Positions 4,492 through 58,385 of a stretch of 64,000 nt of DNA are shown piece after piece; position 1 is the first letter of the stretch, and each line of letters opens with the position of its first letter. Origin of the DNA: Acidobacteriota bacterium (GTDB lineage: Bacteria; Acidobacteriota; Blastocatellia; UBA7656). A program made the translations under genes and the position numbers. The stretch is taken from assembly GCA_040754075.1 (NCBI GenBank), contig JBFMDH010000008.1, positions 1 through 64,000 on the forward strand, read 5' to 3'. The notes under the pieces are model-generated. The model was not told the origin of the DNA. It saw only the letters and a list, made by a program, of their open reading frames with translations, and searched no databases.

Positions 4492-7283
4492 ATTTCCTCC
4501 CGTGTGAGTAACCGGCCAGTTGTGATTTTCGGTTGCTCATTTTTCGGTGGCTCGTAATGCCGCCGAATAACTTTAAAAACCTCAAGCGCCACAAGCGGGA
4601 TTGCGCCAATGGCTAATAAAACGAAGCATTCTGTCCATGACACCTCAGTGTTTTTGAAAAACCGGCAAAGGGTTTGGTTATGGTGCGTCGCGAGTTGAAA
4701 AGCAATCGCTAAACCAGCTACCCAGGCAAGTTTTAGATTCGAGAAGATGCCGACCATCCAGAGAGATTTCGTTTCGCTGCGGCAGCCAAAAGATCGTAGA
4801 ATCTCAGCATAAACCAAGGTCGCAAAAGTGTGCGTTCTGGCCATCTCTAAATTCTCATAGGTTAATCCATATAGGTACACGGCAAACGTTACACCCGCCG
4901 TAAGCATTCCAGTGACGGTCATAGTTATAAAAAAGTTTCGATCCGTAAACGATTCGCTGCTCCGGCGAGGGGGGCGTTGCATGACTTCGGGGTCAATCGG
5001 GTCCATAGCCAGAGCCAGTGCAGGCAGCCCATCGGTCACCATATTGATCCATAAAAGGTGAATTGGCAGCAGGGGTATTGGCAAGCCTATTAACACGCTG
5101 ACGGTCATTAAAAGCAGTTCGCCGAAGTTTCCAGCGAGCAAGTATTGAAGCGTCTTCTTAATATTATCGTAAACGCCTCGTCCCTCTTCGACAGCAGCGG
5201 CGATAGAGGCGAAGTTGTCATCGGTGATGATCATATCCGACGACTCTTTGGTCACCTCTGTACCGGTCTTGCCCATTGCAATACCGATGTCTGCCCCTTT
5301 GATTGCTGGCGCATCATTGACGCCGTCGCCGGTCATGGCAATGACTGCCCCTTGTGCCCGCCATGCCCGAACAATTTGCAGTTTGTGGGCGGCGCTCACA
5401 CGGGCATAAACTAGGGTTTGAGAAACCCGCTCCTGTAATTCAATGTCTGATAGTTGATCGAGATCGCTGCCGTTGAGCGCCTGGTCATCATCCTTTGCAA
5501 TACCCAATTCACGCGCCACTGCCAACGCCGTGCGGGGATGATCACCGGTAATCATTACGACGCGGATACCGGCGCTGCGGCAACGCTTCACGGCATCTTT
5601 AACTTCCGCGCGCGGTGGGTCATACATTCCTGCAAGCCCTACGAAGATGAGTTCGCGCTCGATGTCATCGGCTTCTGCTTGATAGATCTCGGCTGAATCA
5701 ACAATCCGATAAGCCGCAGCCAGAACCCTGAGCGCGCCTTGAGCCATCGCAGCGATCTGAGCCATTACGAATTGACGGTCTATCTCGCTAATCGGTCGAA
5801 GACCGTCAGCGCCAAGAATATGTGTGCAGCGCTCCAATAAAATATCGGGCGCGCCTTTGACCATTGCCTGCATACTTCCATCTGCCATTCTGCGCACCAC
5901 GGACATGCATTTCCGGTCGGCATCAAAAGGAAATTCCCGAACTTTCGGATGGCGATTTTGAATATCACTTTGAAGCACGCCAATCTTCATCCCGGTTGTC
6001 AAAAGGGCACCTTCCGTTGGATCACCAATGACGCTCCATCTCTCTCCCTCTTGTAAAAGATGGGCATCATTGCAACCTACCAAAATCATAAACAACTGAT
6101 GAGCGATGTCGGATTGTTTCTCATTTAAACCAATGCCATCGGCTAAAACCTCGCCTGATGGCGTGTAGCCTTCTCCAGTTACGGAAAATCGTCGTTCGGC
6201 AACAAGCAATTCGCGCACGGTCATTTCGCCAACCGTGAGCGTACCGGTCTTATCCGTGCAGATGACATTCGTAGAACCCAGCGTTTCGACAGCGGGAAGT
6301 TTACGAATCAGGGCACGCCGTCGCGCCATTCGTTGAACTCCGAGCGCCAGCGCCACCGTGACGATAGCCGGCAATCCTTCGGGCACGGCAGCAACGGCGA
6401 GGCTTACTGAAGTAAGAAACAAGTCAAACAACGGTATGCCTCGCAAAAACCCTAAAATGAAAATTCCCCCAACGATAACCAGCGATGCCCATACCAGCAT
6501 TCGCCCGACCCGTTCGAGCCGTTTCTTCAAGGGTGTACCTTCGTCAAGCGCAGCTTCTTCTAATAACCTGGCAATCCGGCCAAACTCGGTCTCCATTCCT
6601 GTAGCAATCACAATAGCTACCCCAGTGCCTGCGGCAATGCTGGTTCCCATATAAACCATGTTCATGCGGTTTCCGATGGGTAAATCTTTCTGATTGAGGG
6701 TGACAGCCCCTTTGTTGACGGTCTCCGATTCGCCGGTTAAAGCGGCTTCCATGCTTTTGAGCGATGCGGCATGCAGTAAACGACCATCCGCCGGAACCAA
6801 GTCACCGGCTTCGAGTTCGATGATGTCGCCGGGAACAATTTCAATGGCAGGAAGCACGACAACGCGCCCGTCGCGTCGAACTTTAGCGCGTGGCGCAGTC
6901 AGTTTTTTCAGGGCGACCAAGGCGCGTTCGGCGTTATATTCCTGATAGAAACCAATGAGCGCGTTGAGAATGACAATCGCTAGAATCGCCAGACAATCAA
7001 TCCATTCACCGAGCAACCCTGAGATAACCCCCGCGCCGATTAATAGCCAGATGACCAGACTGTTGAACTGATTGACTAGGATGGCAAGCGGGTGAATCGC
7101 CGCCGCTTCACGCAAGGCATTTGCCCCATACTGATCAAACCGACGCGCCGCTTCCTCAGTTGAAAGACCTTCGACAGTTGCCTGCATCCCTTCAAGCGAT
7201 TTTTCTGATGACAAGGTGTGCCAGGCAAACGATAATTCGTTGCTCAACCCAGTTTGCTCCAACTTATCCTTCACTTTTATCAT
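4488..7283 (-). CDS. P2A-type (Ca2+-type) cation-transporting P-type ATPase
   Basis: The product (931 residues from the ATG at 7283) is a full P-type ATPase. It has an N-terminal cation ATPase domain, the actuator motif LTGES (about 182-186), the PEGL motif in M4 (about 301-304), the phosphorylation site CTDKTGTLT with Asp near 344, the nucleotide-binding domain and the hinge TGDGVNDAP. M5 reads NFGEL and M6 reads NMVTDGLPAL, matching the SERCA Ca2+ ligands (Asn/Glu and Asn/Thr/Asp), so Ca2+ is the best substrate guess; Mn2+ is possible. The ATG is preferred over TTG 7289 because AAGGAAG lies 7 bases upstream. It overlaps the LOG gene stop by ATGA. No N-terminal heavy-metal domain or CPC motif is present, so it is not a copper P1B pump despite lying in a metal cluster. 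Confidence 0.9.
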   Translation of the reverse strand: MIKVKDKLEQTGLSNELSFAWHTLSSEKSLEGMQATVEGLSTEEAARRFDQYGANALREAAAIHPLAILVNQFNSLVIWLLIGAGVISGLLGEWIDCLAILAIVILNALIGFYQEYNAERALVALKKLTAPRAKVRRDGRVVVLPAIEIVPGDIIELEAGDLVPADGRLLHAASLKSMEAALTGESETVNKGAVTLNQKDLPIGNRMNMVYMGTSIAAGTGVAIVIATGMETEFGRIARLLEEAALDEGTPLKKRLERVGRMLVWASLVIVGGIFILGFLRGIPLFDLFLTSVSLAVAAVPEGLPAIVTVALALGVQRMARRRALIRKLPAVETLGSTNVICTDKTGTLTVGEMTVRELLVAERRFSVTGEGYTPSGEVLADGIGLNEKQSDIAHQLFMILVGCNDAHLLQEGERWSVIGDPTEGALLTTGMKIGVLQSDIQNRHPKVREFPFDADRKCMSVVRRMADGSMQAMVKGAPDILLERCTHILGADGLRPISEIDRQFVMAQIAAMAQGALRVLAAAYRIVDSAEIYQAEADDIERELIFVGLAGMYDPPRAEVKDAVKRCRSAGIRVVMITGDHPRTALAVARELGIAKDDDQALNGSDLDQLSDIELQERVSQTLVYARVSAAHKLQIVRAWRAQGAVIAMTGDGVNDAPAIKGADIGIAMGKTGTEVTKESSDMIITDDNFASIAAAVEEGRGVYDNIKKTLQYLLAGNFGELLLMTVSVLIGLPIPLLPIHLLWINMVTDGLPALALAMDPIDPEVMQRPPRRSSESFTDRNFFITMTVTGMLTAGVTFAVYLYGLTYENLEMARTHTFATLVYAEILRSFGCRSETKSLWMVGIFSNLKLAWVAGLAIAFQLATHHNQTLCRFFKNTEVSWTECFVLLAIGAIPLVALEVFKVIRRHYEPPKNEQPKITTGRLLTREEI

Positions 7284-7945
7284 TTGCAACTTCCTTCAGG
7301 GCAGCGTGAGGCAACACCTTGCGGATGACATGGACAGACATAACTGTCAGACTGGTAACGCCGCAATAAAAGTTCAATCAAATGATCCGGGTTGGCATCA
7401 TAGATAACTTCCGCACCGGTCTTTTTGCCTAAAGCCGCTTCTAATGCCGGCAACGTACTGGTAATGCCCCCCGTGCCGCTCAGTACACCAATTAACTTGC
7501 CCTCTTCATAGGCTATTGAAAATTCCCCGAGCGTGCCTGACCTTCCTCCGACTACGAGCACGATGTCGCAACTGCGGATATTGATTAACTCGCGACCCAT
7601 CAGACCCAACCCGGTAAAAATCAAAACATCATACTCTTGATACGGAGAGTCGAAGGTTTCAATATGTTCTTTAAGACTAACTGCGGGAGAAATGCCAACC
7701 ACATGACCGCCGACTTCCTTTGCTCCAAGCACTGCTTCGTGCGGTAAACCGGGGCAGGCTCCGGTTAATAAACAGCAACCACTCTCTGCTATAGCGCGTC
7801 CAAGCTTTCGACACCGTTCCAAACAGGAGGGAGCGAAGTCACCACCCGCTGATCCCATTACACCAAATCTGATCTGCGCTCCGCTGAATCGATCACGCGC
7901 CATCAGGCTTCTGGTTTTACTTGCTTCTACTGTTTGAAATTGCAT
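7280..7945 (-). CDS. LOG-family (TIGR00725-like) protein with Cys-rich C-terminal tail
   Basis: This protein has a Rossmann fold of the LOG/YgdH-like group: FGVMGSAGG near the N-terminus, LLTGACPGLPHEA, and GGRSGTLGEFSIAYE in place of the PGGxGTxxE motif. Some relatives are cytokinin-riboside phosphoribohydrolases; the TIGR00725 branch has unknown substrates, possibly nucleotides. The last 20 residues contain CPCH and CPEGSC, a possible metal-binding tail not usual for the family. The ATG at 7945 has GAGG five bases upstream and is preferred over GTG 7978, giving 221 residues. The gene overlaps the ATPase start by four bases. Confidence 0.75.
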   Translation of the reverse strand: MQFQTVEASKTRSLMARDRFSGAQIRFGVMGSAGGDFAPSCLERCRKLGRAIAESGCCLLTGACPGLPHEAVLGAKEVGGHVVGISPAVSLKEHIETFDSPYQEYDVLIFTGLGLMGRELINIRSCDIVLVVGGRSGTLGEFSIAYEEGKLIGVLSGTGGITSTLPALEAALGKKTGAEVIYDANPDHLIELLLRRYQSDSYVCPCHPQGVASRCPEGSCK

Positions 7946-7974
7946 GATTGCCTCTTTTCTTAAACCGCCACTGC

Positions 7975-8250
7975 TCACTTCAATGCTTGAGACCGGGTGA
8001 GGTGGTTATAGAGCCAGGCGGTAGCACCCGCGACACTAGCGGTTCCAAGTGTCCAGCCCGCCAAGCCGCCGAAGAAGTTGCCCCAAGTTAGTGACCGTAC
8101 AATGCCACTTAAATCTGCGTGAATAAGATGCCCGGCTATCGCGGTCGTCTCTTTCGGCGCGATGGCGACAAAGAAAGCACATACAACAAACAGAGTTGCC
8201 GCAATCAGTGCCGAGGCAATAGCAAAAGCGCGTATATCAAGTTTCATCAT
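7975..8250 (-). CDS. Small membrane protein, two transmembrane helices
   Basis: The 91-residue product has two hydrophobic stretches, about residues 9-30 (FAIASALIAATLFVVCAFFV) and 55-78 (WGNFFGGLAGWTLGTASVAGA). The second is Gly/Ala rich. AGGAG lies just upstream of the start. It resembles small DUF5676-type membrane proteins often found in metal and redox clusters, but that match is tentative. It sits between the transglycosylase and LOG genes on the same strand. Confidence 0.6.
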   Translation of the reverse strand: MMKLDIRAFAIASALIAATLFVVCAFFVAIAPKETTAIAGHLIHADLSGIVRSLTWGNFFGGLAGWTLGTASVAGATAWLYNHLTRSQALK

Positions 8251-8362
8251 GATTCTCCTTTCATCGTTGTTTTACATCGAGTCTTGCTGGCTCACGTATG
8301 GAAGCGGTCAGCGTGCGCCGACTATGAAAAAAACACGCCTCACAACCTTCCACCAGTTATTG

Positions 8363-9280
8363 TTATTCCATTCCGGCTGAAGTCCGGAGTGATTTTCCTG
8401 CCTGTAACTGTGACCAGGCGCTCATCACCGCTGGAACATAGTTACGCGTTTCCAAGGGCAATAAACCACGCCGTGACATCTCATCAAAATCTCGTATGCC
8501 GGTTTTGTTGATGATGCGTTGCACGCGGTTTTCCCCGGCGTTGTATGCCGCAATCGCTAATTTCCAATCCCCGAATTGACGATAAAGGTCGCGCAGGTAA
8601 CGCGCCGCGGCGCGAGTAGAATGCTCCACATGAGTGCGATGATCATTAGCGGGTTCAACCGTTAAGCCATAGCGCGCTGCGGTTGCGGGCATAAACTGCC
8701 ACATTCCCCGTGCCCCTTTCGGAGACAGCGCCAGCGGATTAAATCGGCTTTCCACGAAAGCCACTGATAACAGCCCGACCGGCAGGCGCTCTTCCTCAAG
8801 AATTGGAGCGAGCGTTCTGTAGTATTGGTTGAGTCTACTTTTCGCCGTCGCTTTCAGCGCATAGAAGAAAGTCTTTTCAGGCTTTATCAATATCGGCGAA
8901 GGGTTGGCTTGCGGAGCAAGCGCCTTCAATTCATGATCAACACGCTTATGCAGTTCACCTAACAAGCCGCCACGTTCGCTTTGGTCTTCCATTGCGGCGA
9001 TTTTCTGCGCCTCTTTCAATATTTCCGTGGCTCGTCCGATCTCGCCGACTTTTTTAGCCTGAGAACTCGCATCGATTAACCGCGAAGCCGCAATCACTTT
9101 TTCCGCAGCCTGATGGCGAGCGCTAACGCTCGATTCAATGCTCTTCATGGCTCGCAAAACCGGATCATCCGTAACCGCCGTCGATTGGCCGTTGGCGATT
9201 TCCGCTCCGGTCAAGATGAGGACAATCAAGATTGTCAGTGTAAAAGCTCGAACCCAGGTTTTGCGGTGATTCGCGTTCAT
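8363..9280 (-). CDS. Lytic transglycosylase (SLT domain), secreted
   Basis: From the ATG at 9280 the protein is 305 residues with a signal peptide (hydrophobic core TLTILIVLILTG, ending near ANGQS). A helical region follows, then a C-terminal SLT domain: VESRFNP carries the catalytic Glu, followed by GARGMWQFMPATA, ARYLRDLY, and WKLAIAAYNAGENRV. These enzymes cleave peptidoglycan to 1,6-anhydro-muropeptides in the periplasm. The start is chosen because AGGAGAGG lies just upstream and only this start exposes the signal peptide. It begins 8 bases after cusA, so it is probably co-transcribed; it may open the wall for the envelope-spanning efflux complex. Confidence 0.88.
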   Translation of the reverse strand: MNANHRKTWVRAFTLTILIVLILTGAEIANGQSTAVTDDPVLRAMKSIESSVSARHQAAEKVIAASRLIDASSQAKKVGEIGRATEILKEAQKIAAMEDQSERGGLLGELHKRVDHELKALAPQANPSPILIKPEKTFFYALKATAKSRLNQYYRTLAPILEEERLPVGLLSVAFVESRFNPLALSPKGARGMWQFMPATAARYGLTVEPANDHRTHVEHSTRAAARYLRDLYRQFGDWKLAIAAYNAGENRVQRIINKTGIRDFDEMSRRGLLPLETRNYVPAVMSAWSQLQAGKSLRTSAGME

Positions 9281-25958: not shown

Positions 25959-27884
25959 TTATTGATTGACCTGCAATGCGGCTTTCAATTGATTCATATC
26001 GCAACCAACATCTTTGCCATCGGTGCCGCGACCTTTAAGCGGACTTAACGGGACAAGCTCATAGTTGCCATTGGCTGCGTCAACGAAGCCGATTTCATCC
26101 ATCGTTTGAAAAAAGAAATTCAACTCAGGATACAGCGATGAATTTCCACCAATAAACGCATTGCCTTTAAATTTCTTCCCCGGTAGATATTTATTCAAGG
26201 TGCTTTTGCCCGTGCCTGTGCCATCACCGATAATGCCATACTCATTATGTTGAAAGATGTTGTTCAAAAATTTAACCCCATCGCTTGGCTGCCCATAGGC
26301 GTTGATGGTATTGCCGCTTTGCAAAACCGTGTTGTGCATGACGGTAATGCTGACGACATCGGTGATGATGAGAAAGACGCCGTTGCCGCCGCCCCATTGT
26401 TTGCCATTTATATCTTCAAACAGGTTGTTCACAATCTTGATATTTCTGGCTTTTTCACTGGGCTTGAGATAATCCTGACCGAGAATGTTGATTGCGCCAG
26501 CCGTGTGACGAACAATGTTACTGGTAAACGTGACATCTTCAACGATAGACCAGGGAGCGGTGCCATCCTGATTGCGAACCGTGAACAAAATGGCAACCCC
26601 GCTTTGCGCATCAACCCAGTTATTCTCGAAAAGATTGCCCTCAATCAACACCCGCCGGGCATTCTTCAATTCAAATATATTTTTCACAGACCAGCGGGTT
26701 GCCTGAGTTGGCGGGGTTGCGCGTGTGCCTTCGATTGTGCCGGTATCGATAAACGGACAAATGCCATCGGTTGTCGAACAGGTCAAAGCATCCATTTCAA
26801 AATAGACCCAGTTTCTTTCCGTTACTGTCGGGTCATCGGTAGTTCGATAAATGCGATAAGCCGTCGCCCGCTCGACCGGTTGCCACGATAACTGAATCAA
26901 ATTGTCACCGGTTTGCGGCGTCACGCTGATTTCATCTGAGGCAGCAGACGTAGCGGTTGCACTATAGCCTGCACGGGTGCGCGCCGTGACCCGGTAGTAA
27001 TAAGTCGTATAGCCGTTCAAGGCTCCGCTTGAAGGCAGACTTTGCGCTGTAAGATGGACTGGTTTGGCGAGAATGCCTGCTTTCCAATGCAGTGGTTTCG
27101 CTAAATGATTGCGGCGAAATTCAATATCAGAGGGAACCAGGTTGACTATTTTCGGGTCTGCGCCACCGAATAAAACATTTTCACCTGCGCCTTCCAGATA
27201 GTTGTTGATAATCGTAAACGGGCCTGTGCCATTCCACGAAGCAATCGCCTGCGTGTCAAAGCCTATGCCGTGACAATCGGAAATATAGGAATTGATGATT
27301 GTCGTGGTGGCGCTGTTGAGCGCCACGCCGCGCGCTACATCGGCAAGCGCATTGCCATGAATATAACAACGGTCAAGCGTGAGGTGATGCGGCAGGGCAT
27401 CAATTGTTGTCTCATCGCCGCCCCCGAATTTCACAATGCCATAATTGAGCATAACGTCCGGCGCAATCGTGAATTCAATGCCGATGAAACGGAAATGATG
27501 GGTGTCGTTTACGGTTCTCAGCGCCGCTTCGCTATTGGGGCTGACGAGTTTTGCGAGTTTATTGCTGAATGTCGGGTCAATACGCGAACCGGCAGGTGGC
27601 AACTGTTCGTCCGGCGCTGAAGTGCGAATGGTAATCACACTCCGATTGTTGCTTTCAACTTTCGGAAGAATGAAATTTCCGCTAAAGGTCGCACCGGCTT
27701 CGAGCAGAATGGTATCACCGGGACTTGCCTGATTTAATACGGATTGCAAATCTTCGCCCGCGCGAACCAGGTGAGTTGAATCAACTGGTGAAAATGAATG
27801 AGTGAACGAAGCCATTGCCGGCAGAGTTGCCAGTAAAATAAAAAGCGCGACCCATAAAGATTGGCTTACAGGTTTTTTTACCAT
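25959..27884 (-). CDS. Secreted right-handed beta-helix protein with inserted FN3-like domain
   Basis: The ATG at 27884 follows AAGGAA and starts a signal peptide (SLWVALFILLATLPAMA), giving 641 residues. The body is a parallel beta-helix with ladder-like segments such as HLTLDRCYIHGNA, GAGENVLFGGADP, RRVLIEGNLFENNWV and HNEYGIIGDGTG. About 115 residues with fibronectin-III character (YYYRVTARTRAGYS, LIQLSWQPVERATAYRIYR) are inserted between the KPLHW and RWSVKNIFELKN parts, which are almost adjacent in the two paralogues. Beta-helix proteins in EPS loci are often polysaccharide lyases or epimerases, but no catalytic motif is recognised. The gene shares a 152-bp identical tract with the paralogue at 30,522. 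It overlaps the flippase gene by 7 bases. Confidence 0.82.
   Translation of the reverse strand: MVKKPVSQSLWVALFILLATLPAMASFTHSFSPVDSTHLVRAGEDLQSVLNQASPGDTILLEAGATFSGNFILPKVESNNRSVITIRTSAPDEQLPPAGSRIDPTFSNKLAKLVSPNSEAALRTVNDTHHFRFIGIEFTIAPDVMLNYGIVKFGGGDETTIDALPHHLTLDRCYIHGNALADVARGVALNSATTTIINSYISDCHGIGFDTQAIASWNGTGPFTIINNYLEGAGENVLFGGADPKIVNLVPSDIEFRRNHLAKPLHWKAGILAKPVHLTAQSLPSSGALNGYTTYYYRVTARTRAGYSATATSAASDEISVTPQTGDNLIQLSWQPVERATAYRIYRTTDDPTVTERNWVYFEMDALTCSTTDGICPFIDTGTIEGTRATPPTQATRWSVKNIFELKNARRVLIEGNLFENNWVDAQSGVAILFTVRNQDGTAPWSIVEDVTFTSNIVRHTAGAINILGQDYLKPSEKARNIKIVNNLFEDINGKQWGGGNGVFLIITDVVSITVMHNTVLQSGNTINAYGQPSDGVKFLNNIFQHNEYGIIGDGTGTGKSTLNKYLPGKKFKGNAFIGGNSSLYPELNFFFQTMDEIGFVDAANGNYELVPLSPLKGRGTDGKDVGCDMNQLKAALQVNQ
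26533..26684 (-). repeat. 152-bp tract identical to 31093-31244
   Basis: Every base of this stretch matches 31093-31244 at a fixed offset of 4,560 bases, while the flanking coding sequences of the two beta-helix genes differ markedly. It encodes the segment from the end of KNIFELKN to VEDVT. Identity at silent sites argues for recent recombination rather than selection on protein sequence. Confidence 0.9.
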
Positions 27885-29416
27885 GCTGATTCCTTCGATA
27901 AATTGGTTGATTGATTGCCAGAACTTCGGCGTAAACGCAATGCCTGGCGGCGTAACCATTCCCATTCGTCGGCAGTGAGGATGCCTGACAGGAGAAAAGC
28001 AGACAGATAGCTTACAGAAAAAATGATTGCCATTACAACCAATCTTAAAAATGGTCGGATATCGAGTAAAAAATATGGTAAGACAAACGTGATGATAGCG
28101 GCGGCAGCGGCGCTCAACGCGACCTTTTTTATATCTTTTAATAAATAGTTGTCGCTTCGTCGGACGCCGATGACCTTGCCCATTTTCACGGCTGTCCAGA
28201 TGCGCTCAAGCACGCTGAAGAAAACCACCACCGAGATAATCGCGATTAATCCGAAATAACGGGTCGCTGCCCATAAAGCCAAAATCATGAAACCAATCAA
28301 AACCAGGCGGAGTTTCAACAGGTAATAGCGTTGTTCGGCATAGGCGCGAAGCACCGGGTCAAGCACCAGAATGCTCACCGGCAACATGGTTAAATTGATG
28401 GCAAAAATCGACCAGCTTGCCAGGTATTGGTCAGTGAAAAGAACGATAATGAAATCGCGTCCGGCAACCATTAAAAAGCCATAAAGCGGAAAATAGACCA
28501 TCGCCAGTTTGCGCATCACCTGTGCCATCAGTTCAATGATTTGCTGTCTTGCATCTTGCTTTTGTAAAACACTGATGCGACCAATCATGACCGAGCAGAC
28601 CGATTCGCTGAGAATGCCGACGAGCGGCAATTGAAAACAACCGATAGCATAAATCGCAAAGGTCGCGGCGTCGTAGGTGTAGGCTGCGAAGTAATTGTGC
28701 AAATCACTTTGCAGGGAATAGAGCAGCCCCGCGAAACCGAGCGGCAGGGCATAGGATAACTGCCGGCGCAAAACTTTGTGGTCAAACTTTTGCCAATAAC
28801 CGGGGAATCGTCTGTGTAGATAAACTAACAGCATCAGCAACTGCAAAATGCCTTGAATGATGGCGGCAATCATTAAAGCTTTAACGGATGCGAATGCGAC
28901 CGCTGCAATCACCAGCAGCGCGGTTCTCACAAATTGTGATGAAACAACGAAAGCGAAAGCGAGGCGCGGTTCCTGTTTGGCAACCGCAAGCATTTCGGGA
29001 AGCGGCGTCATCACCCAAAACACAATAATCATGCCAACCAGTGCGCCATAATCAAAAAATTCGGGGCTGTGCAAAATAACCGCAAGCATTGATGGAAATG
29101 CCATAAATGCCACCCCCATCATTAAGCCGATAACCGTGTAAAAAATTAAAATGTTGAAAACCACAGCACCCTGCTTTTCGGGTTCACGCGGCAGAAAATA
29201 ATAGGCGCTCATACCGAAACCGAGCGGCAATAAAGTGATGGCGGTGCCGACCACCAGAAATACCTGTTTGTAGACACCGAATTCGTGTGGGCTGAGCCGC
29301 CGCACAAGCATCAAGGGCAAGATAAAATTCAAGATAAACGCGGCGATTTTGGCGACCATAAACCAGGTAGCGCGGGCGGTCAGCGAAGAATGGGATTGTT
29401 CAGTTTGTGATTCCAT
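27878..29416 (-). CDS. Polysaccharide flippase (Wzx/MATE-like oligosaccharide transporter)
   Basis: The 512-residue protein is highly hydrophobic with about 14 predicted membrane helices. It begins with an ATWFMVAKIAAFILNFILPL segment typical of the polysaccharide transport (PST) family, with the conserved RRLSPHEFGVYKQ after helix 1. It would flip lipid-linked repeat units from the cytoplasmic to the periplasmic face of the inner membrane. The C-terminus is a polar tail. The gene lies within the EPS run, between a glycosyltransferase and a beta-helix gene. No strong ribosome binding site is seen before the ATG. Confidence 0.88.
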   Translation of the reverse strand: MESQTEQSHSSLTARATWFMVAKIAAFILNFILPLMLVRRLSPHEFGVYKQVFLVVGTAITLLPLGFGMSAYYFLPREPEKQGAVVFNILIFYTVIGLMMGVAFMAFPSMLAVILHSPEFFDYGALVGMIIVFWVMTPLPEMLAVAKQEPRLAFAFVVSSQFVRTALLVIAAVAFASVKALMIAAIIQGILQLLMLLVYLHRRFPGYWQKFDHKVLRRQLSYALPLGFAGLLYSLQSDLHNYFAAYTYDAATFAIYAIGCFQLPLVGILSESVCSVMIGRISVLQKQDARQQIIELMAQVMRKLAMVYFPLYGFLMVAGRDFIIVLFTDQYLASWSIFAINLTMLPVSILVLDPVLRAYAEQRYYLLKLRLVLIGFMILALWAATRYFGLIAIISVVVFFSVLERIWTAVKMGKVIGVRRSDNYLLKDIKKVALSAAAAAIITFVLPYFLLDIRPFLRLVVMAIIFSVSYLSAFLLSGILTADEWEWLRRQALRLRRSSGNQSTNLSKESAW

Positions 29417-29466
29417 GCGTTGAACTACAGCTTATTGATGGGCGTTACTTTTGGCGGGTGGTTGTT

Positions 29467-30492
29467 TTACCCGCAGGTTTCCGTTTTTCCGCTATTGAAA
29501 TTTGCCTGTAAGCGGTTGCGAAAAAGGTATGCCGATAATAATGAATGGGGCGCAAGGTTAAGCCAGAGCAAGACCAGTCGGAGTTTCCATCGCCGGTAAT
29601 ATTGATTGGCAAAACGTATGGCTTCGGCTGCGCCTTGAAAATCTTTTTTTAATAGCTGATGTTTGCCGCGTTCCAGTTCCATAGCGGCTGTGAGTTGCAA
29701 TCGGGTAGCGTTCAACAGCAACTCTTCTCGCTCACTCAATGAACCGATTTGCTGAATATTTTCAAGCACCTGAAGTGCGCCCTCGAAGGCTTTAAGCGAA
29801 TTGGCTGAAAGGCTGTCGCCATGTTTGCGATGGTTAATCAATTTCTTTTTTTGAAATCCCATGCGGGTGCCTCGTTGCGCCAGCCTCAACCAGAGGTCGT
29901 AATCTTCCGCAGGGATGATTTGGGTATGCGTTTCATCAAACAATCCCGCATCCATTATCGGTTGTTTTCGCGCCACCACCGTGGAAGTCAGCACCGTACA
30001 GCGCGCCGCCAACAGACTTTCAAAATTCACTTCACCCTGTGAAGGAACCAATTCCATAAAACTGTAGCCCGCTAACGGCGAATGTCCGAATAGATGCGCA
30101 TCGCAATAAACAAAATCAAACTCTCCGGTCTCCATAAAATTCAATTGTTCCTGCAAATGTTCCGGCAGAAAAATATCATCGGAATCAAGAAGCGCAATGA
30201 ACCTGCCTCGCGCCTTGCGTATGCCGGCATTGCGTGCCGATGCCGGGCCACCATTGGCTTTTTTGAGGTAAATGATTTTTCCGGCAAAAGGTCTCAGCAC
30301 CTGTTCGAGGGCTTCGGTATCGGGTGAGCCATCGTTCACTACAATAATTTCAAATGACTTGAAAGTTTGATTGAGCACCGATTCAATGGTTTCGGTGATG
30401 TGCTGCGCGGCGTTGTATGCCGGAATAATGACGCTGATGAGCGGTGTGGCATCGGTTGATTTTGGCTTTTGCAAACGCTTTGAGTCAAGCAT
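29467..30492 (-). CDS. Glycosyltransferase family 2
   Basis: The 341-residue protein has a GT-A fold: ISVIIPAYNAAQHITETIES, then IIVVNDGSPDTE, GGPASARNAGIRKARG and the metal-binding ALLDSDD motif. A DFVYCDAH segment and a PAEDYDLWLRL acceptor motif follow, and the C-terminal ~100 residues are helical. It should add one sugar to the growing lipid-linked repeat unit at the cytoplasmic membrane. GGAGGG lies a few bases before the ATG. The donor cannot be predicted from sequence. Confidence 0.88.
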   Translation of the reverse strand: MLDSKRLQKPKSTDATPLISVIIPAYNAAQHITETIESVLNQTFKSFEIIVVNDGSPDTEALEQVLRPFAGKIIYLKKANGGPASARNAGIRKARGRFIALLDSDDIFLPEHLQEQLNFMETGEFDFVYCDAHLFGHSPLAGYSFMELVPSQGEVNFESLLAARCTVLTSTVVARKQPIMDAGLFDETHTQIIPAEDYDLWLRLAQRGTRMGFQKKKLINHRKHGDSLSANSLKAFEGALQVLENIQQIGSLSEREELLLNATRLQLTAAMELERGKHQLLKKDFQGAAEAIRFANQYYRRWKLRLVLLWLNLAPHSLLSAYLFRNRLQANFNSGKTETCG

Positions 30493-30521
30493 CCGTTACC
30501 CTCCGTGAATAAGCATTCGAG

Positions 30522-32210
30522 TTACAGTTTCGGCTCAATCATGCCGATGTCTTTGGCGAGTTGATTGAGGTCGCAGCCAATATCTTTGCCATCGGTTCCG
30601 GCATTTTTAAATTGACTGGTGGTAGGCAAATTAAAATTTTTTTCGGCTTTTTCGAGGTCGTCCAGGTTAGCCGGGAAAAAATTATCCGCCGGATAAAGCG
30701 ATGCGCGCCCGCCCGCTAATACATTGCGTTTAAAGGTCGGCTTGGAAAAATATTTGGCAATCGTCGGATTGCCCGGACCTACGCCATCACCGATTACCCC
30801 ATATTCATTGTGCGGCAGAAAATTGTTGGTGAAGACAAATCCTTCGTTGGCTCTGCCGTGACCGGTGATGATGTTGCCGCGATGCACGACGGTGTTGTGA
30901 TCGACCGAGACCTGGCGGGTATCGCTGATTTGCAGAAAGACGCCGTTGCCGCCCCATTGTTTTCCGCCGACATCGTAAATCAGGTTGTTATAAATTTTGA
31001 TGCGTTGAACCTGTTGACTCTCGTTATTGTTATCGCGACCGAGAATATTGATAGCGGCTGCTACGTGCCTCAATATGTTATTGGAAAATGTCACATCTTC
31101 AACGATAGACCAGGGAGCGGTGCCATCCTGATTGCGAACCGTGAACAAAATGGCAACCCCGCTTTGCGCATCAACCCAGTTATTCTCGAAAAGATTGCCC
31201 TCAATCAACACCCGCCGGGCATTCTTCAATTCAAATATATTTTTGATAGACCAAGGCTCACCTGCATAAATGGCTTCGTTCTTTTTCCACGCCAACGGTT
31301 TGAAACAGTGATTGCGGCGAAACTCAATATCGGAAGGCACGAGGTTAGCGATTTTCGGGTCAGCGCCGCCGAACATAACATTCTCGCCCGCCCCTTCCAG
31401 ATAGTTGTTGACGATTTTAAATGGTCCCGGCCCATTCCAACCGCAAATTGCCTGTGAATCCGCGCCTTTTTCATGGCAATCCGAAATATGTGAATCAATG
31501 ACGCTGGTGTGCGCACTGTTAAGCGCGATGCCGCGTCTCAGATTGGCGGTGGCGCTGCCGTGTAGGTAACAACGGTCGATGATTAAATCGTGCGCAACCT
31601 CTGCCATAGAGGTTTGCGCGCCTGAACCCAGTTGCAGCAAATCATAAGTCACAGGGGTGGTCGCGGTGACCGAAAATTCAATACCGATAAACCGATAGTG
31701 GTGCGCGCCCGCAGCGGTTTTGATAACCGGGTCAGCGTTGGTGGTGATGAGCTTAGGTAAAAAATTTACATACTTGGGTGTGATGCGGGTTCCCTGTGCG
31801 GGAAGTTGTGCATCGCTTGCCGTCGAGCGAATGATTATCCACTCGTTGCCCGATTTTTTCGGCAAGGTGAAATTTCCTAAATAGGTCGCTCCGGCTTCAA
31901 GCAGGATTACATCGCCGGGTTTTGCCTGATCGAGCGCGGTCTGAAAATTCCTTGCCCCGTCCGCGCCTGCCGCGACTTTGATTTTGCGACCTGCGGTTGT
32001 CGGTAAAGTCGTATCAAGAATCGTCGCCGGTAATTGCGGCGCTGTGGTTGAGACTGGCGAAGTTGATTGAGTGGGTTGGCGGCTTGCGGTAACAGTAGCC
32101 GGATTTGCCGAATCGCTATCGAACTCGCCGCTTTGGTTGGGGTTTGCGGCGCACGACACCAGGCAGATAAAAAGGTAAATGGCTAGTAATGGTTTTAATA
32201 AATTCACCAC
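30522..32210 (-). CDS. Beta-helix lipoprotein, paralogue of the 25,959 and 55,263 genes
   Basis: The first good start is GTG 32210 (or 32207), preceded by GGAG; this gives about 562 residues. The N-terminus is a lipoprotein signal with lipobox LVSC followed by AANP, so the protein is probably anchored in a membrane. A Ser/Thr/Pro linker leads to the right-handed beta-helix: DLIIDRCYLHGSA, GAGENVMFGGADP, FRRNHCFKPLAW, KNARRVLIEGNLFENN and HNEYGVIGDGVG. Unlike its neighbour it has no FN3 insertion. It may bind, cleave or epimerise the exported polysaccharide; no catalytic residues are recognised. It shares a 152-bp identical tract with the paralogue 4.5 kb away. Confidence 0.82.
   Translation of the reverse strand: MVNLLKPLLAIYLFICLVSCAANPNQSGEFDSDSANPATVTASRQPTQSTSPVSTTAPQLPATILDTTLPTTAGRKIKVAAGADGARNFQTALDQAKPGDVILLEAGATYLGNFTLPKKSGNEWIIIRSTASDAQLPAQGTRITPKYVNFLPKLITTNADPVIKTAAGAHHYRFIGIEFSVTATTPVTYDLLQLGSGAQTSMAEVAHDLIIDRCYLHGSATANLRRGIALNSAHTSVIDSHISDCHEKGADSQAICGWNGPGPFKIVNNYLEGAGENVMFGGADPKIANLVPSDIEFRRNHCFKPLAWKKNEAIYAGEPWSIKNIFELKNARRVLIEGNLFENNWVDAQSGVAILFTVRNQDGTAPWSIVEDVTFSNNILRHVAAAINILGRDNNNESQQVQRIKIYNNLIYDVGGKQWGGNGVFLQISDTRQVSVDHNTVVHRGNIITGHGRANEGFVFTNNFLPHNEYGVIGDGVGPGNPTIAKYFSKPTFKRNVLAGGRASLYPADNFFPANLDDLEKAEKNFNLPTTSQFKNAGTDGKDIGCDLNQLAKDIGMIEPKL
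31093..31244 (-). repeat. 152-bp tract identical to 26533-26684
   Basis: Partner copy of the identical tract in the neighbouring beta-helix gene. The third paralogue at 55,263 has the same protein motif here but clearly different codons, so identity is not required for function. Confidence 0.9.
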
Positions 32211-32246
32211 TGTTTCTCCGTCTCTCAATCGGTTTATTCATACCGC

Positions 32247-55262: not shown

Positions 55263-57704
55263 TTATTTCGGCAGAATGTGCGTATCGTTTTTAAGTGTGC
55301 CCGGAGAAACAAAAAGATAATTCACCGGCGATAAAACAATCTGGTCGAGCGAAAAGCCATCTTCACGCGGTTGAATTCGCAAGGTGTGTGTGCCGGTTGA
55401 TTGGAAATAAATGACCGGACCCAACACGCCAATCCCCCATCCGTTATCCTGCCAGCCCCAACCCGATAAACCGATGTTGAGATAATCTTCTAAATTGATC
55501 ACTGTGGCATCATTCGTGCCGATGCGATAAATCGGTGAGCCGGATAGCGTGACGCTTCCTGAAAATTGCACATAAAACGAATCGTTGTATGGTGAATTGT
55601 TGATGGCTTTGCCGCGCGTCCACAGTCGATAAGGAACCCCAGCCTGAGCATTAAAGGTCATTTCAAAATAGTGCTTGGGTTTGGTCATCGGGGTATTCAA
55701 TTTTGCAATGCCGAGGTCAGGGTTTTGCAAACGTCTGCCGCCGGCTGCCGTCGAATCGCTGATGACTTGCCAGGAACCAACTTTCACCAGGGATTCCGCA
55801 GCATACAGCACCACATCGGTTGGCGCAGGAGGCGGATTGGTTACCGAAATGGTTATCGATGCCGAAGCCCTTGCGCCGAGGTTATCGGTTACGGTGAGCC
55901 ATGCTCTGTAGGTGCCTTCGGTTAAATAGGTATGTGAGGGTGACAGGGTAGTTGCCGATTGCCCATCGCCAAAGCTCCAAATGTAAGCCACGATTTGCCC
56001 ATCTGCATCCGTGGCATTGCCGGAAAAATTGAGCGCCAGGGGCGCGAACCCGGAAAGCGTAGACGCTGAAACGCTGACGGTTGGCGGTAGATTAACTGGG
56101 GGTGCCGTTTCACCAATCGCCGTATCGACAGCATTGAGGTCTGCGCCAATATCTTTGCCGTCAGTTCCGCCATTCAGGTATGGACTGGTAGATGCGAGTC
56201 GGAAATTTTCTCCGGCAAAGTCTACAAAACCGACGGCGTCCATCGTTGCCGGGAAAAAATTATTGGCTGGATAAAGTGACGGGTAACCGGCGACCAGAAT
56301 ATTTTTTGCGAATGTCGAAGCGGGGAAATAGGCATTGAGGGTTGAAAGCCCGGGTCCGTAACCTGAACCGATGATGCCATATTCGTTATGCGGTGTGAGG
56401 TTATTGGTATAGACAAACCCCGAATGTGATTGTCCATCGGCGCTGATGATGTTGCGGGTTTGAAAAGCGGTGTTATGGTCGATGGTCACATCGGCGGTTC
56501 CATCCAGTAAATAAAATAGCACGCCATTGCCGCCCCAACGCGCTCCACCTACGTCCACGAAGAGGTTGTTTTTAATTTTAATGCGACGCAATTGTTGTGA
56601 AGGATTTATATAATCATAACCGAGCATATTCACACCGGCGGCTGTGTGTCGCACGATGTTATTGGTAAAGGTGACATCCTGCACAACCGTCCACGGCGCT
56701 CTGCCATCCTGATTGCGCGGAGTAAATAAAATCGCGGTGCCGTTTTGTGATTCCACCCAGTTGTTTTCAAAAACGTTGCCATCAATAAGCACCCGTTGGG
56801 CATTTTTGAGTTCAAAAATATTTTTCACCGACCAGCGAATGCCCGCAAAGCTTGCGTCATAAGGATTCCAGGAGAGCGGTTTCGTCAGGGTGTTTCGCTT
56901 AAATTCAATATCGGAAATCACCAGCCCGGAAATGGCTGGATCAGCGCCACCGAATAAAACATTTTCGCCTGCGCCTTCAAGGTAATTATTCACCACTTTC
57001 AGAGGACCCGGGCTGTTCCACGCGGCAACCGCCTGGGTATCAAAACCGATTGCATGAATGTTGGAAATATAGGAATCAACAATTGCGCCGTTTACACAAT
57101 TAAGCGCCACCCCGCGCGAAATATCGCCGGTGTTATTTCCATGAAAGTAACAGCGGTCGAGAACCAAATCGTGCGGCACTTGCTCTAGCGTTGTTTGCTC
57201 GCTGGAGCCGAAACACACCAATCCATAATTTATATTTACAGTTGCCGCTAAACCGAATTCAATGCCAACAAAACGAAAATGATGAGCGCCAGATGCGGTA
57301 GCAATAACCGGCGCAGCATTGGGGCTGATGAGCTTGGGCAACAACCCCGCAGCCGTTGGACTGAGGCGCGTGCCCGGCGCAGGCAGTCCGACTTCGGCAG
57401 AAGAACGAATGATAATCCAATCGGAACCGCTTTTATTTGGAAGGGTAAAATTGCCGACAAAAGTTGCGCCTGCTTCCAGTACGATACGGTCTCCGGGGGA
57501 TGCCGAATTGAGCGCGGATTGAAAATTTCCGCCTGCGGAAACATAAATTGTTTGCCCGGCTGACTGGGGCATCGTGGTATCAAGATAAATTCTGGGAAGT
57601 TCCGGGTCGCTCAGGGATTGGGCATGGCTTTTGAAAAATGTGAGACTTAAAAAAAATAAAAGAATAAGGGCTGTCAACGTTCTCCAGAAAAATTTAAACG
57701 TCAT
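55263..57704 (-). CDS. Secreted beta-helix protein with PKD domain and C-terminal sandwich
   Basis: From ATG 57704 (GAGGAG upstream) the protein is 813 residues with a signal peptide (LTALILLFFLSLTFF, SHAQS). The beta-helix (about 60-510) matches its two paralogues: DLVLDRCYFHGNN, GAGENVLFGGADP, NAQRVLIDGNVFENNWV, HNEYGIIGSGYG. A PKD domain follows (about 540-625: NLPPTVSVSASTLSG, YIWSFGDGQSATT, HTYLTEGTYRAWLTVTD). The last ~190 residues have a carbohydrate-binding-module-like beta pattern (YFEMTFNAQAGVPYRLWTRG, RIQPREDGFSLDQIVLS). It probably binds or modifies surface polysaccharide. It is a single-gene unit ended by the terminator at 55165-55210. Confidence 0.83.
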   Translation of the reverse strand: MTFKFFWRTLTALILLFFLSLTFFKSHAQSLSDPELPRIYLDTTMPQSAGQTIYVSAGGNFQSALNSASPGDRIVLEAGATFVGNFTLPNKSGSDWIIIRSSAEVGLPAPGTRLSPTAAGLLPKLISPNAAPVIATASGAHHFRFVGIEFGLAATVNINYGLVCFGSSEQTTLEQVPHDLVLDRCYFHGNNTGDISRGVALNCVNGAIVDSYISNIHAIGFDTQAVAAWNSPGPLKVVNNYLEGAGENVLFGGADPAISGLVISDIEFKRNTLTKPLSWNPYDASFAGIRWSVKNIFELKNAQRVLIDGNVFENNWVESQNGTAILFTPRNQDGRAPWTVVQDVTFTNNIVRHTAAGVNMLGYDYINPSQQLRRIKIKNNLFVDVGGARWGGNGVLFYLLDGTADVTIDHNTAFQTRNIISADGQSHSGFVYTNNLTPHNEYGIIGSGYGPGLSTLNAYFPASTFAKNILVAGYPSLYPANNFFPATMDAVGFVDFAGENFRLASTSPYLNGGTDGKDIGADLNAVDTAIGETAPPVNLPPTVSVSASTLSGFAPLALNFSGNATDADGQIVAYIWSFGDGQSATTLSPSHTYLTEGTYRAWLTVTDNLGARASASITISVTNPPPAPTDVVLYAAESLVKVGSWQVISDSTAAGGRRLQNPDLGIAKLNTPMTKPKHYFEMTFNAQAGVPYRLWTRGKAINNSPYNDSFYVQFSGSVTLSGSPIYRIGTNDATVINLEDYLNIGLSGWGWQDNGWGIGVLGPVIYFQSTGTHTLRIQPREDGFSLDQIVLSPVNYLFVSPGTLKNDTHILPK

Positions 57705-58385
57705 ATCTCTCCTCAAGAAATTTTAGTCGGACGACCGGCACACTTCTCCTTCATTGAGAAATGCTTACTGCTTTTACAACAGAGAAAGAACTTTATTTGT
57801 GTTTCAGGGGCGTTTTGTTGAGGGATAAAACACAGGGGCAGGACAATGGGCAGGTTAGTAACACACACGTGAAGGGACGCAACCGCACCTGCAATCAATG
57901 ATCAAAGTAGGCTTTTGAATCATTCGATTCCGTTTACGCAATCATCAACAAAAAAGGCATCTGTTGGGATTGTCTATTTATTTTTTATGTGGTGGAGGAT
58001 TAAACCGTATGCCACCCCATCATATGAACGGCAAAATCTCAAGTCAAGAATCTTTCCCGTACACGGTGTTTATTATGAGTTCATAATGAAAACGCTTCTG
58101 GATTTATTGCGTGCAGTTGTATGAATTTTTATTGGATGGTGTGCGATTCTCCTACATTGAGAATACTGAATCAGTGCGCTCATTCCCCAAATATCCCGCC
58201 CAAAATCCGGTTTATTGCCGCAAAAAAATTATGAAAGCAACATTCACATCAATATTCATGCGTAGCAGTAACTTCATTATGTCTACATCAATAATTTCCA
58301 TAATGCGGCATCCCTGTTGCTTTGAGTTCAGAGTCTCAAAAAACAACCAACAAAAATTTCGCGTTGCGTTTTCAAGGTAGCGATT
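57705..58385. other. Divergent intergenic region
   Basis: This stretch separates the leftward beta-helix/PKD gene from the rightward pseudokinase gene. Short frames in it show no ribosome binding site or protein-like composition. It must hold two divergent promoters; no clear consensus or sigma-54 element was found by eye. It is visibly richer in A and T than its neighbours. Confidence 0.4.

Follow-up and report, generated by a model that had tools for sequence, protein, structure and literature searches.

Gene conversion between bacterial paralogues is a well-known process. In Salmonella, continuous blocks are copied non-reciprocally between the two copies tufA and tufB in the presence of mismatch repair, which shortens the conversion tracts (PMC5485169; here and for the other published systems we draw on part of each cited paper). 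Partial conversion between anciently diverged paralogues is on record for the release-factor genes of RF1 and RF2, where two independent cases are limited to one shared domain (PMC4530459), and in Mycobacterium tuberculosis conversion between repeated genes has been described as a source of variation (PMC13061034, PMC12046097). The case presented here lies in a stretch of 64,000 nucleotides from an Acidobacteriota bacterium of the class Blastocatellia (assembly GCA_040754075.1, contig JBFMDH010000008.1, positions 1 to 64,000; hereafter the window). Two neighbouring genes on its minus strand, gene A (25959..27965) and gene B (30522..32228), both members of a beta-helix protein family, carry a tract of 152 base pairs (bp) that is the same in both. 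This locus differs from each of the described systems. The tuf copies differ at 12 nucleotides (PMC5485169), whereas A and B are only about 61% identical outside the tract; the RF1/RF2 events are phylogenetically inferred and cover nearly a whole domain (PMC4530459), whereas the A/B tract is short, fresh and base-identical; and the M. tuberculosis examples concern the antigen and repeat loci of a pathogen (PMC13061034, PMC12046097), whereas here the locus is a polysaccharide locus of an environmental bacterium. We regard recent short-patch gene conversion between these neighbouring, anciently diverged paralogues as very probably the best explanation of the tract.

The tract occupies 26533..26684 in gene A and 31093..31244 in gene B (both minus strand; residues 329-379 of the 568-amino-acid open reading frame (ORF) of B). 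The match is exact, cannot be extended by even one base on either side, and compares with a runner-up of 23 bp among the exact direct repeats in the window. The original prediction had described this identity, silent sites included, between diverged flanks with sharp borders, had noted that a third paralogue at 55,263 (gene C) differs throughout the segment, and had proposed recent recombination between A and B. Alignment of the three genes, with silent sites counted in windows, bears out the observations and agrees with the proposal. In the A-B codon alignment, full windows of 17 codons outside the tract contain 10-36 nucleotide differences per 51, the two windows wholly within it contain none, and a window straddling the border contains 2; the figure of about 61% identity was obtained outside the run and a further 30 bp on each side. 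Among codons that can be compared for synonymous differences, 48 of 49 are identical between A and B in the 51-codon block corresponding to the tract, as against 119 of 216 in the arms on either side (Fisher p=4.3e-10). The same is seen at four-fold degenerate sites (20/21 identical in the block, 42/93 in the arms), where the sole mismatch in the block falls at the third position of the border codon, immediately past the end of the tract. The longest synonymous run between A and B covers 49 codons; its permutation P is 0.0001, the lowest value that 10,000 shuffles can give. In the same segment the comparisons with gene C show no excess, with 20/37 synonymous codons matching for A-C and 19/37 for B-C (Fisher p=0.48 and 1.0, respectively), and C is 73% identical to the tract. 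Thus, the excess of identity between A and B is confined to the tract and does not extend to C. The presence of 0 differences in 152 bp places divergence since the event below about 2% (a rough 95% limit by the rule of three).

Note that gene B contains a 9-bp direct repeat (31104-31112 and 31245-31253), encoding Trp-Ser-Ile, of which one copy lies barely within the tract at one end and the other immediately past the opposite end. Gene A is without the second copy. The repeat is probably a repeated protein motif.

A segment might also be kept identical by strong selection on its nucleotides, for example through an RNA element or an overlapping antisense gene, and antisense ORFs of 214 and 215 amino acids do span the two copies of the tract. 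However, no antisense ORF of at least 100 amino acids lies over the matching segment of C, and C differs from A at 17 of the 37 codons compared for synonymous differences. Moreover, among 73 members of the family the between-genome match at synonymous codons is 0.421 in the segment versus 0.409 and 0.422 in the arms, so that nothing marks the segment out for constraint at the nucleotide level; at the same locus in relatives, where the original prediction can also be examined, the silent sites of the segment are as free as those of the arms. This already refutes selection of this kind, except for a constraint peculiar to A and B, and we give it next to no credence. Silent-site identity in a single segment, flanks of about 61% identity, the lack of any excess with C and the lack of special constraint in relatives together argue for gene conversion.

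We also entertained the idea that the tract stems from the assembler, as a copy or a false join. The assembly consists of 68 contigs, among which two pairs of ends have 125-127 bp in common, as would result from short-read graph assembly; the matter is judged here from the assembled sequence. However, as a matter of reasoning, two direct copies on one molecule can be connected with both outer flanks and the intervening sequence in only one linear order, so that misassembly is unlikely, and 152 bp is longer than the apparent k-mer. Similar tracts are, moreover, found in 10 other genomes (see below), and in the trees of the arms the 3' arm of gene A is sister to G001_71621 (support 95), a gene of one of the compared genomes of the class (these are numbered with G; G000 is the genome of the window itself), and its 5' arm is nearest to the same gene, weakly. 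An assembly artefact is accordingly highly improbable.

The tract itself is also closest to G001_71621 (75% of bases, 84% of amino acids), and because the 3' arm of that gene is the sister of A's, copying from A to B may be slightly favoured over the reverse. Gene C groups with G001_46465 in both arms (support 98 and 99), and B has no clear orthologue in the arm trees. As to how copying may have come about, one gene would suffer a break or a stalled replication fork and be repaired from the other copy, 4.56 kilobases (kb) away. Pairing could start where the beta-helix is locally better conserved (the identity of C is 73% in the segment, as noted, versus 59% to A and 63% to B in the arms), and synthesis or heteroduplex would then span about 150 bp until halted by the density of mismatches. 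One border lies near an fn3-like insert of gene A, which might be a natural stop for heteroduplex. The genome contains one match to RecA, three of MutS type and one to MutL, and ordinary recombination under mismatch repair may therefore suffice.

To judge from the sequences of its relatives, the process appears to recur in the beta-helix family across the class. Members were found in 86 of 162 class genomes, and 101 members and fragments were collected; loci of single-copy genomes are included where the search returned them, so that the collection does not hold every member in the class. After pairs with fewer than 100 shared codons were dropped, 4742 of 5050 pairs were kept, 56 within genomes and 4686 across genomes. 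Exact runs of at least 60 bp (71-635 bp) are present in 14 of the 56 within-genome pairs. Of the 29 genomes that have a pair to assess, 11 contain such a run; in the other 18 none was seen. By contrast, none of the 4686 cross-genome pairs has a run of this length, the longest being 56 bp, in a pair that is 87% identical. The same holds for pairs of comparable identity (0.6-0.8), where runs occur in 10 of 24 pairs within genomes and 0 of 104 across, with the caveat that pair identity is itself raised by conversion. The longest runs are of 635 bp in G086, 402 and 302 bp in G020, 289 bp in G057, 152 bp in the genome of the window, 126 bp in G027, 124 bp in G141, 107 bp in G094, 101, 99 and 77 bp in G113, 101 bp in G119, 81 bp in G153 and 71 bp in G152; where runs halt at contig ends (G027, G113, G153) the lengths are lower bounds. 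Copies at the end of C6 and the start of C8 in G020, and on C133 and C339 in G141, look like one gene split by a contig end and stand outside the 56 pairs. Permutation P values are at most 0.0017 for 13 of the 14 run-bearing pairs and 0.024 for one pair of G113. Because the copies are also alike outside the longest run in G020 (87-91%), G113 (75-80%) and G153 (79%), older conversion or partial duplication is possible in these three.

When mapped on B, the tracts have ends at differing residues from genome to genome. In the numbering of the 571-amino-acid open frame of B (three residues more than the 568-amino-acid ORF), cover is densest at residues 230-292 and 360-380, a well conserved part, and no mapped tract begins before residue 117 or enters the last 30 residues. 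Arm trees, which hold 73 of the 101 members, show clear incongruence for G086 and not for A/B. The two copies of G086 group as sisters by their 5' arms (support 100), whereas the tree of the 3' arms separates them widely, which is as would be expected from conversion of the 5' part. In G057 each copy has a large contig of its own, and the distance between them would be about 150 kb or more if both contigs belong to one replicon (as estimated from contig sizes); proximity thus does not always seem to be needed.

These comparisons also bear on whether the block came, by recombination, from the homologue in a different strain and not from the other copy in the same cell. Import would leave a sharp tract too. 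Nevertheless, an imported block would still need to be recombined into the wrong paralogue, family runs of at least 60 bp are found only within genomes, and near pairs are favoured in the genome of the window (see below), so that we regard import as very unlikely, and copying between A and B in one cell as the preferred account.

Outside the class genomes counted above, none of 22 pairs in 13 record sets has a run of at least 60 bp (longest 52 bp, in a pair that is 81% identical), as compared with 11 of 29 genomes within the class (p=0.009 for genomes or record sets with a run). The outside sample consists of the best 80 of 313 relatives from an alignment scan, taken as 75 loci with 6-kb flanks, nearly all from metagenome-assembled genomes. 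Thirteen of the 75 loci were dropped as records already in the class; the rest are outside it by title only, so that some labelled 'Acidobacteria' are possibly members, and pairs were matched by record prefix within the fetched loci, copies beyond these being unseen. Given this biased best-80 sample and assignment by title, the contrast is a lead and not a result. A contig scan with a single protein as query found no relatives. Note that hidden longer tracts would cause contigs to break in these genes, an expectation that was not borne out: in the 31 genomes that have two or more members or fragments, contig ends inside family genes number 25 versus 19.2 expected (P=0.12). In the 16 genomes with at most 250 contigs the figures are 8 versus 2.55. 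Both comparisons come from rounded contig counts and sizes, and neither is used as evidence.

We compared other paralogues in the genome of the window, in 1.65 Mb of which 33 pairs have at least 55% identity over at least 150 aligned positions. Runs of at least 60 bp are present in 4 of the 14 pairs less than 40 kb apart and in 0 of the 19 distant pairs (p=0.024), and with pairs among A, B and C removed the counts are 3 of 11 versus 0 of 19 (p=0.041). Conversion in this genome thus looks, from these counts, to be biased to neighbours. The four runs are those of a C25 peptidase tandem (2,465 bp), A/B (152 bp), a Tricorn-type protease tandem (98 bp) and an inverted case (84 bp); each protease label comes from the one gene of the tandem that was scanned. 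In the first (locus L108), a direct repeat of 2,466 bp is exact between positions 6459-8924 and 9986-12451 of contig C5, in tandem genes about 56% identical outside it. In the second (L159/L160), patches of 98 bp (138654-138751 and 142151-142248 of contig C3) and 62 bp are identical in tandem genes that are otherwise 66% identical. Since other near pairs carry such patches, patchy identity of neighbours is not confined to the beta-helix family, and the notion that this family alone is prone to conversion is unsupported. At the loci fetched from other genomes, runs of at least 60 bp are present among pairs of at least 55% identity in 0 of 8 non-family and 12 of 35 family pairs, and among pairs below 55% in 0 of 3 and 0 of 8, respectively, counts too few to separate the two.

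Several points weigh against conversion as set out here, or against parts of it. Direction and ancestral state are weak because B is without a clear orthologue, and the unconverted state is never seen, there being no same-genus genome among those compared. A short-read assembler may collapse copies that are a few bases apart, so that the true identity may be slightly below 100%, which would not change the conversion reading. In its outcome, import from another strain is indistinguishable from intracellular copying. Few positive pairs stand behind the bias to neighbours, partial duplication may account for the case of 2,465 bp, which lies less than 20 kb from the end of its contig, and the family copies of G057 are on different large contigs. 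Finally, in 400 kb of G057 just 2 pairs have at least 55% identity, and neither carries a patch.

A further possibility is programmed diversification, in which a template and a variable repeat are maintained by a diversity-generating retroelement or a pilin-like cassette system. The product is probably exported, and the genome has two reverse-transcriptase (RVT_1) matches. These matches, however, are on contigs C12 and C14 only and not on C8, the contig of the window. In diversity-generating retroelements, template and variable copies differ mostly at adenines, and here there are 0 mismatches between the copies over 152 bp. Moreover, both copies are inside full ORFs and the position of the tract differs among genomes. 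We therefore consider programmed diversification extremely improbable.

Between the two genes are a polysaccharide flippase (27878..29416, minus strand; Pfam Polysacc_synt_3) and a family 2 glycosyltransferase (29467..30492, minus strand; Pfam Glycos_transf_2), which, as the original prediction pointed out, a crossover between A and B would delete. The geometry holds, as the copies are in the same orientation and 4,560 bp apart; the event itself is hypothetical. In the stretch of G001 that was read, the order of the window is kept from gene C to the uridine diphosphate (UDP)-sugar dehydrogenase, and then follow one beta-helix gene, a glycosyltransferase (40% identical), a coenzyme A-ligase-like gene and a DUF362 gene; the FkbM gene, the flippase and gene A are missing from it. 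In G002 the dehydrogenase, a beta-helix gene, the glycosyltransferase and the flippase are in the same order as in the window. Gene content at the locus therefore changes. We considered and rejected a simple A-B crossover deletion as the origin of the G001 arrangement, in which the glycosyltransferase is kept and the affinities of the arms are not shifted significantly: sites of the single gene match A versus B at 28:25 in the 5' arm and 30:25 in the 3' arm for amino acids (p=1.0), and at 76:100 and 78:71, respectively, for bases (p=0.12).

The predicted fold of B is a right-handed parallel beta-helix (predicted local distance difference test score 91), in which the tract corresponds to residues 270-320 of the model and spans four strands and part of a fifth. 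The best-matching solved structures include modules of AlgE mannuronan C5-epimerases (AlgE6, Z 29.5) and RbmB of Vibrio cholerae (Z 28.7), as well as PL6 alginate lyases (Z about 25-26), phage tailspikes and NosD. RbmB, likewise a right-handed parallel beta-helix encoded in a polysaccharide (biofilm) cluster, acts on its own cluster's polysaccharide (PMC11637428). The resemblance of B to RbmB and to AlgE and PL6 proteins is one of fold (VIA-align Z 24-30), at about 14-19% sequence identity. By sequence, no Pfam family is above cut-off for A or B, PHROGs gave no match for B or C, a phmmer search of B against the PDB gave no meaningful match, and the best stretch of a profile match to the alginate lyase 6kfn (E=2.7e-7) is limited to profile positions 1-56. 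Matches among the cluster's proteins are to glycosyltransferases, the flippase, the UDP-sugar dehydrogenase and a heparinase-like family, with a chain-length protein below cut-off. Among the 10 window proteins scanned, the two XrtA/PEP-CTERM markers that gave a match were under the NCBIfam cut-offs (amidotransferase, 594.8 versus 816.9 bits; chain-length protein, 144.9 versus 278.85 bits). A beta-helix fold alone does not fix function; by analogy with RbmB, we infer that the beta-helix protein may be exported and, as a lyase or epimerase, modify the polysaccharide of its own cluster.

With respect to the genes themselves, the N terminus of B is lipoprotein-like (LVSC), a reading inferred from the ORF. 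The real start of gene A is likely 27884, to judge from its translation, since the listed start at 27965 overlaps the flippase gene and that at 27884 gives a signal-peptide-like sequence (MVKK...). The fn3-like insert of gene A (26697..27080, minus strand, ends approximate) is absent from B and C in the alignment, begins about 10-20 bp past the tract border and is placed in a loop of the beta-helix; its fn3 match (E=0.0034, 18 bits) is under the curated cut-off of 25. Two paralogues of G082 (C198, 27763 and 33449) have extra sequence at about the same place. Gene C (55263..57716, minus strand), identified by family search, has a C-terminal PKD domain by Pfam scan and no conversion seen, and a search of the whole genome (7.58 Mb) with B found no copies beyond A, B and C. 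An ORF of 1,793 amino acids just past the window (L094:2554-7932; contig C8, 66554-71932), with TIG repeats and PLD-like and phosphoesterase domains, has a 191-codon segment in common with gene C (62.5% amino-acid identity).

Taken as a whole, the A/B tract is a new instance of a known process, notable for the unusually low overall identity of the genes involved, and recurrence across the class is the main gain. A search of the literature library used here found no paper joining Blastocatellia and gene conversion and, among the matches listed, no title on this beta-helix family. A bolder proposal, to which we attach a rather low probability, is that short-patch conversion between adjacent, strongly diverged paralogues is unusually frequent in Blastocatellia despite MutS and MutL (whose presence was checked in the genome of the window only), making mosaic beta-helix enzymes in polysaccharide loci. 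What is at hand is a clear case of a block apparently copied between bacterial genes that are about 61% identical overall with mismatch-repair genes present, in a family that offers 11 natural examples with readable tracts. Trees of such genes mix histories, which is a warning. If the bolder proposal is true, a standing mosaic process would reshuffle the coils of the helix, possibly altering polysaccharide specificity, and if specificity follows the blocks, new polysaccharide-modifying enzymes could arise in this way.

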